From: Clostridia bacterium
Lineage (GTDB): Bacteria > Bacillota > Clostridia > UBA1381
Direction: 5' to 3'
DNA length: 35,091 bases
Assembly: GCA_022768695.1 (NCBI GenBank)
Contig: JALEPO010000088.1
Location: 1 to 35,091, forward strand
The notes beneath the pieces are model-generated. The model was not told the origin of the DNA. It did not search any database and saw nothing but the letters and a program-made list of their open reading frames with translations. Positions 7,969-35,091 of the stretch are shown one piece after another; the stretch's first letter is position 1; every line of letters starts with the position of its first letter. Position numbers and translations under genes: made by a program.

Positions 7969-8314
7969 ATGAATATTATTATAGTCGGCGGCGGCAAGGT
8001 GGGTGTAACGCTTGTCGAGTATTTGAACAGTGAAGGACAGCGCTATGGAAAACAGCAGCGGTACAGAAATAAGCACTTTATATCGAATTGTGGGGAACAA
8101 GGCAGAGGCAATTGAATTCAAAATTACTAATGAACAAAAATTCACATCAATACCTCTGAAAAAACTCAAATTAAAAAAGAATGTACTTATAGCTTCAATT
8201 GTGCACGACGGAAAACCATTTATTCCGGACGGAAACAGCACTATTGAACCGGGAGATTCGCTGATAATAGTTACAACACTTCAGCTGAAAAAGGCTACAG
8301 ATATACTTGCATAG
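7969..8314 (+). pseudogene. trkA: trkA remnant: N-terminal start of the first RCK_N domain joined out of frame to the C-terminal RCK_C region
   Basis: Frame 1 from ATG 7969 reads MNIIIVGGGKVGVTLVEYLNSEGQ, then RYGKQQRYRNK... to TGA 8113-8115. Frame 2 from about 8030/8045 reads (S)AMENSSGTEISTLYRIVGNKAEAIEFKITNEQKFTSIPLKKLKLKKNVLIASIVHDGKPFIPDGNSTIEPGDSLIIVTTLQLKKATDILA, typical of the TrkA C-terminus. Confidence 0.85.
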
Positions 8315-33952: not shown

Positions 33953-34033
33953 GCTGCAAATTTTGTGAGCTGATAATTGTAATAATCAGCTTGGAATAAT
34001 ACTGCACATCTCTGTGTTAAAGGTAAATATATA

Positions 34034-34067
34034 GGGCAAAGATTTGAAAAATCTTTGCCCTTTTATT
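34034..34067 (+). terminator. Terminator after the ftsH/DUF1858 genes
   Basis: gggcaaagattt (34034-34045) / aaatctttgccc (34049-34060), 3-nt loop, then ttttatt. Confidence 0.85.
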
Positions 34068-34093
34068 ATGTGTGAAACAGTGAAATCTTATTA

Positions 34094-34210
34094 AGGCAAT
34101 ACCGCACAAAGATTGTGCGTAAGATGCGCCGGCAGATTTTTCATCAGCTTGTATAAAAACCCCGTAGTCATACTGGCGCATGATAAGGAATTTTTGTACA
34201 AGATGGCGGG
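34094..34210. repeat. Candidate interspersed repeat or mobile-element remnant with nested inverted repeats
   Basis: Hairpin cgcacaa aga ttgtgcg (34103-34119) plus atgcgcc (34124-34130) / ggcgcat (34175-34181); no coherent gene; reverse frame reads QYDYGVFIQADEKSAGASYAQSLCGIAL. Borders approximate. Confidence 0.35.
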
Positions 34211-35025
34211 AAATGTGCAAGCAGCTTTGCGGCAACGGTAATTCCCGCGGCTGCGGCAGAAATCGTAGCAGGTGACAAAAACCTAACGTCAGCCGATATA
34301 CAACTGTATTATCACCAGGGCGAAATTGCAAAGGCTAACGATACTGATAGCTTAGCAAGTGTTTTGACAGTTGTGAAGCATTTACTAATAACGATGCCAC
34401 CAATAATGTAACGCGCATAATGGACGGAAATACAGATGCGCAGGTCGTAGTCGGAACAAGCAGCAATCCGAAGTCTTATCTGATTATTGATTTGGGTGAA
34501 AATCATAGAGCCGTAACAGAAATAAAAATGACCAACATAACAAACGGAGCAGTGTTGGGTTTAACAAATACCATAGCCACAGATGCAGGCAGTATAATAA
34601 CACTTGATTATTCTATTAGAGGAAATGCCGGCAAGATGTATCAATCAGGTGATTTAGGTATAACATATCAGACTGCAACATCATCTCTAAATAGTGCTAA
34701 ATCGGACACCACACTGACAGGAGATTTTAAAGCTATAGATACGGCAACGCTTCCCGAAGACTATGAATACAATTCAACAACCGGTGAAATTCAAGTTAAA
34801 AACAATCAGGAAGCAACACCTGAAATTGCAATCGACTATGCAAATGAAAAGCTTACAGGCTTTGTAGCTGACGGAAGCTACACAATCGGCGGAAGTCCTG
34901 TTACACCGACAGAAACTGTGCAGATGGCAACAGCTGTTGTTACAATAGGACCTATTGTGCTGCTGTACCCATTCCTTCAAAAATATTTTGTACAGGACTT
35001 GACAGTGGGCAGTGTAAAAGGATAA
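34200..35025 (+). pseudogene. Decayed surface-protein remnant (frameshift near 34370) fused to the C-terminal tail of a CUT1-type carbohydrate ABC transporter permease
   Basis: Frame 2: SFAATVIPAAAAEIVAGDKNLTSADIQLYYHQGEIAKANDTDSLASVLTV; then frame 1: EAFTNNDATNNVTRIMDGNTDAQVVVGTSSNPKSYLIIDLGENHRAVTEIKM...; ends MATAVVTIGPIVLLYPFLQKYFVQDLTVGSVKG*, a typical permease C-terminus. Confidence 0.7.
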
Positions 35026-35050
35026 AATATATATAGAATGGAGGATTATG

Positions 35051-35091
35051 ATGAATAGCAATATAAAAGAATTATATCGTTTGGACTTGCT
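35051..35091 (+). CDS. Start of a further CDS truncated by the window edge
   Basis: tggaggattatg ATG AAT AGC AAT...: (M)MNSNIKELYRLDLL..., open to the window end; RBS ggagg. Confidence 0.5.
   Translation, partial: MNSNIKELYRLDL

Follow-up and report, generated by a model that had tools for sequence, protein, structure and literature searches.

The described systems closest to the locus analysed here are the LplABC-type CUT1 operons for pectin or rhamnogalacturonan oligosaccharides, such as ytcPQ-ytdP-yteP of Bacillus subtilis. For the ytcQP-yteP genes of B. subtilis, which encode a transporter of broadly this kind, induction by rhamnogalacturonan I has been reported (PMC5730181). An operon found in relatives of the studied bacterium shares with these systems two permeases, a solute-binding lipoprotein (SBP), a regulator and a GH88/105-like hydrolase, and, as in LplABC-type operons, no ATPase gene was found among its listed ORFs. 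The studied genome, in contrast, keeps only the last 37 codons of a permease gene, the start of the SBP gene and the end of the hydrolase gene. Bacterial pseudogenes and deletion scars can arise from illegitimate recombination at short repeats. Known scars keep the ends of genes and lose the middles, as was found here, and short shared sequences are possible at the joins of this locus, although its parental sequences are gone and exact repeats at the joins can therefore not be fixed. Genome rearrangements, short repeats among them, have been studied in Deinococcus recA mutants (PMC8149714).

The intact operon that holds the permease tail is present in G002, G010, G043, G045 and G069, with a variant in G027, so that the full sugar-transport operon, which a reading of the sequence alone (hereafter the sequence-only reading) had proposed to look for in relatives, is carried by at least five other genomes. 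The gene order is as follows: a divergent AraC-type regulator (scored only where the contig of the relative reaches so far), an LplB-like permease, an LplC-like permease, the SBP, the GH88/105-like hydrolase and a ROK sugar kinase. A large secreted protein is sometimes encoded between or after these genes. According to Pfam and NCBIfam, the SBP of about 533 aa is an SBP_bac_8 protein with DUF3502 and the kinase is a ROK glucokinase, while the hydrolase is near Glyco_hydro_88, just below the cut-off. The substrate is perhaps a pectin-oligosaccharide, which is a guess from the analogy with the described operons.

The window, i.e., the whole stretch of 35,091 nucleotides that was analysed, corresponds to contig C97 in full; the draft genome to which this contig belongs is probably metagenome-derived (2.09 Mb, 197 contigs, 85.6% complete). 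The last kilobase of the window contains the following features:

34033 to 34061, forward strand: intrinsic terminator-like hairpin after the ftsH - DUF1858 pair (13-bp perfect inverted repeat, T-rich tail), the left border of the putatively decayed region
34091 to 34243, forward strand: MITE-like dispersed element with left terminal inverted repeat TTAAGGCAATACCGCACAA, right one missing (71-78% matches to gut metagenome contigs)
34226 to 34370, forward strand: fragment that looks like a signal-peptide end followed by the start of a secreted protein (AATVIPAAAAEIVAGDKNLTSADIQ...), in another frame than the surface domain (three-frame translation)
34354 to 34911, forward strand: surface or secreted-protein fragment that ends in the repeat-domain motif PEIAIDYANEKLTGFVADGSYTIGGSPVTPT (tblastn to same-family proteins of about 700-2300 aa)
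34906 to 34913, forward strand: putative deletion junction CCGACAGA, at which the permease tail follows the surface domain in the same frame (matches from both sides)
34912 to 35025, forward strand: last 37 codons and stop of a CUT1 (LplC/YtcP-like) carbohydrate permease (amino acid and DNA identity to relatives)
35051 to 35091, forward strand: start of the solute-binding lipoprotein gene, one base missing and frameshifted, continuing on contig C66 through the lipobox and then cut (213-bp alignment to G010)

The central feature is an ORF of 201 aa (34420-35025), lying in a stop-to-stop frame of 224 aa, whose stop is 66 bases before the contig end. It consists of a surface-protein domain up to about 34911, followed in frame by the permease tail (34912-35022). 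This composition had been proposed from the sequence alone and is borne out by homologue matches to both halves that are far above chance. The surface half is matched by tblastn in proteins of about 700-2300 aa of the same family. No curated Pfam or NCBIfam family was found for it above cut-off, and a Pfam LptD match (E 0.0036, below cut-off) was treated as chance. A plasmid search gave no match to the surface part, and a pattern search of GTDB genome contigs and viral contigs confirmed no relatives of the domain. Several copies per protein of the motif PEIxIDYxNEKLTGFxxGGSYTI were observed in some of the large (700-2300 aa) proteins of the family, again with no Pfam model above cut-off; it may represent a repeat or linker domain not yet described.

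The 37-residue permease tail (ETVQ...GSVKG) shares 92-97% amino acid identity with permeases that ten other family genomes encode; two of these permeases lie at contig ends, and most are full open frames of about 297-332 codons. The identity amounts to 97% to intact frames of 303 and 307 aa in G002 and G069 and to 95% in G010, and the conserved C-terminal tail of LplC/YtcP-type permeases (ETVQMATAVVTIGPIVLLYPFLQKYFVQGLTVGSVKG in relatives) is present in the ORF. The BPD_transp_1 transmembrane region (about 295 aa) is absent from the ORF, whose tail of 37 residues has no Pfam match; in an intact relative permease the BPD_transp_1 match is itself just below threshold. That the rest of the permease is missing, as had been noticed from the sequence alone, holds for the whole draft genome, where the deleted part has no other copy at the DNA level.

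Alignment of the two halves to their homologues places the breakpoint from both sides at about 34906-34913, within the interval of 34900-34925 where a deletion had been suspected to fuse two unrelated genes. Matches to the surface half run out at query residues 185-186, corresponding to 34908-34911, and nucleotide matches to the intact permease genes of G010 and G002 start exactly at 34912 (83% DNA identity). In the permeases of relatives CC[GTC]GC[CGT] directly precedes GAAAC (CC[GTC]GC[CGT]GA), and CCGACAGAT, which includes CCGACAGA, occurs at a similar position in one surface protein. Up to about 8 bases (CCGACAGA) were thus possibly common to both parents at the join; since the parental sequences are gone, short homology is here a possibility and not a proof. 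No known RNA family was found at the junction.

The locus continues on another contig. Contig C66 (5910 bp) was found by searching the genome of the window with the G010 operon; its reverse complement matches the start of the SBP gene where the window stops, begins with the last 7 bases of the window (ACTTGCT) and continues the operon. The adjacency of the two contigs is based on this 7-base overlap and on colinearity. The end of the window together with C66 aligns with G010 over 213 bp (83.6%), spanning the permease tail, the spacer with its ribosome-binding site (RBS) and the SBP signal peptide as far as the lipobox. Within the SBP gene the sole alignment gap is a single nucleotide in the first codons, and because of this missing base the ATG at 35051 does not share a frame with KRIISFGLAAVMSCGLLAGC; relative to that ATG the conserved signal-peptide frame (KRIISFGLA) is shifted by one base. 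The gene breaks off about ten codons past the lipobox and passes directly into the last codons of the hydrolase gene (GDYYYTEAIYKLFW, stop), with TACG or slightly more perhaps common to both sides. The hydrolase tail is short by about 18 bp in frame compared with the relatives (KLKGFDKLFW to KLFW), which fits a deletion between repeats that contain ATAAG. The sequence-only reading had let the next operon gene begin at 35051 with a normal RBS; RBS and ATG are indeed present, but the frame is out of register and the gene is cut on C66. As the SBP gene is a remnant, its RBS serves no working gene.

Of the genes that accompany this permease in a CUT1 import operon, the first permease gene is absent and the SBP gene is reduced to its frameshifted start. 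At the DNA level, the search with the G010 operon found neither the first permease nor the bodies of the SBP and of the second permease elsewhere in the genome, and the only hydrolase match elsewhere is a 69% paralogue in a different operon on C37. The ROK gene on C66 is intact (315 aa). Just after it (C66 reverse-complement 1158-1208) we observed a 51-bp sequence that recurs with 82-86% identity on C99, C50, C40, C145 and C178 and is possibly a dispersed intergenic repeat.

On the upstream side, the DUF1858/prismane-associated gene before the hairpin at 34033-34061 is intact. The element that follows resembles MITEs in that it shares a unit of about 170-190 bp with terminal inverted repeats that is dispersed in gut bacterial contigs, in this case human fecal contigs H1-H5, with single partial copies in G069 and G055 and one copy in the studied genome. 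Copies on fecal contigs carry the terminal inverted repeats (A)AGGCAATACCGCA.../...TGCGGTATTGCCT(T), and several end in the mirror repeat TTGTGCGGTATTGCC. The window copy, in contrast, has only the left repeat and is without the right end, so that it does not show the two terminal repeats of a MITE. A phage or plasmid origin was considered and rejected, as all matches in the phage collection were unannotated fecal contigs, of which most matched the dispersed repeat and one the permease tail region. For the fragment at 34226-34370 no homologue was found among the loci examined. It is presumably the end of a signal peptide, with a frameshift or join near 34354-34375, and we infer that the surface gene was once part of the same or a neighbouring polysaccharide-use cluster.

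We posit that successive illegitimate deletions are removing a sugar import operon from this genome and that the chimeric ORF is a scar of this process, without function of its own; we consider this reading well supported by the comparison with relatives. The ancestor would have possessed the regulator, the LplB-like and LplC-like permeases, the SBP, the GH88/105-like hydrolase and the ROK kinase, as the relatives do. One deletion would have fused a surface-protein gene, broken in its middle, with the final 37 permease codons, and a second one the SBP gene, soon after the lipobox, with the last hydrolase codons; a small deletion would have taken about 18 bp from the hydrolase tail, one base would have been lost at the SBP start, and the kinase alone would have stayed whole. 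Slippage or end-joining at short repeats may have produced these deletions. The internal gap of trkA on the same contig, described below, and the truncated MITE-like element beside the scar also speak for this reading. The remnants are truncated or frameshifted relative to intact orthologues that lie in the same gene order in the relatives, which is how pseudogenes are recognized. Fusion by deletion, as first proposed, therefore stands, but a single event does not suffice: at least three or four deletions lie in a row and extend onto another contig.

The main rival explanation is a misassembly, because the junction lies 180 bp from the end of the window, which is itself an entire contig. The last kilobase would then have been wrongly joined from unrelated places or strains, and the real genes would be intact. 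Consistent with this are the position of the junction in a draft genome of 197 contigs and the roughly 15% of the genome left unassembled, in which the missing genes could sit. A further feature of the window could indicate an error-prone assembly:

7969 to 8314, forward strand: trkA, lacking about 1.0 kb from the middle of the gene (alignment to the trkA of G001)

Of this gene the first ~20 codons and the C-terminal domain remain, out of frame and with TrkA_C as the only domain, next to an intact trkH downstream. G001, a genome of the same genus, has an intact trkA of 448 aa (76-77% DNA identity), to which the window aligns with a gap of 1013 bases where it has 12. This gap may be either a second, separate real deletion or a sign that the assembly drops sequence. 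One erroneous join, however, would not give a series of lesions in operon order across two contigs, and it is this series in the correct order that argues for real deletional decay rather than a chimeric join. Moreover, the 1-base frameshift and the 18-bp in-frame loss within the remnants would be left unexplained, and no contig holds the missing halves. We thus regard a misassembly as unlikely.

A similarly doubtful reading takes the operon remnants, the trkA gap and the truncated repeat, all within about 40 kb, as signs of a raised rate of gene-internal deletions in this lineage, perhaps due to a DNA repair defect. Our search of the literature on deletion bias found nothing directly relevant.

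Still less probable is that the remnant was kept as a regulatory leader, with a sigma-70-like promoter match in the permease tail (34999-35028, TTGACA-18-TAAAAT) that could serve the ROK kinase gene on C66. Such a role would fit the intact downstream kinase and the 11 out of 12 promoter matches in a retained segment. However, chance alone predicts 3.3 promoter-like sites (sd 1.9) and five were observed, so that such matches are near chance level, and much of the matching sequence owes its conservation to the fact that it encodes the permease tail.

That the ORF is a functional gene for a new membrane-anchored surface protein, with the surface domain held by the permease transmembrane tail, has next to no plausibility: the frame is open for 201 codons and the hydrophobic tail could serve as an anchor, but there is no in-frame signal peptide, the start codon lies within the domain, the piece upstream is out of frame, the neighbouring remnants are dead, and the fusion is absent from relatives. 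Homologues with the same fused architecture, which would have spoken against a scar, were looked for in the family genomes and not found. None of the 30 family genomes carrying the tail has a fused permease, each match being either an unfused permease frame (271-355 aa) or a frame that a contig end interrupts, and a conserved fusion architecture was accordingly rejected. A search of genome contigs with a degenerate junction pattern likewise gave no copy of the fusion; several matches were permeases with their own tail PTETVQMA.

Deletional decay thus being the preferred reading, the ORF most likely has no function and persists as a remnant that makes no useful protein. No function is expected of it given the missing signal peptide, the position of the start codon, the single (last) transmembrane segment that remains of the permease, and the loss of the partner permease and binding protein. 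Annotators should consequently treat ORF 34420-35025 neither as a protein nor as a new domain fusion. The locus would represent a carbohydrate-uptake operon caught part-way through its loss, with gene ends still in order and the kinase kept, and beyond these points the case is one of ordinary genome decay. If a raised deletion rate were true for this lineage, the window would capture a gut bacterium while deletions are actively eroding its genome.
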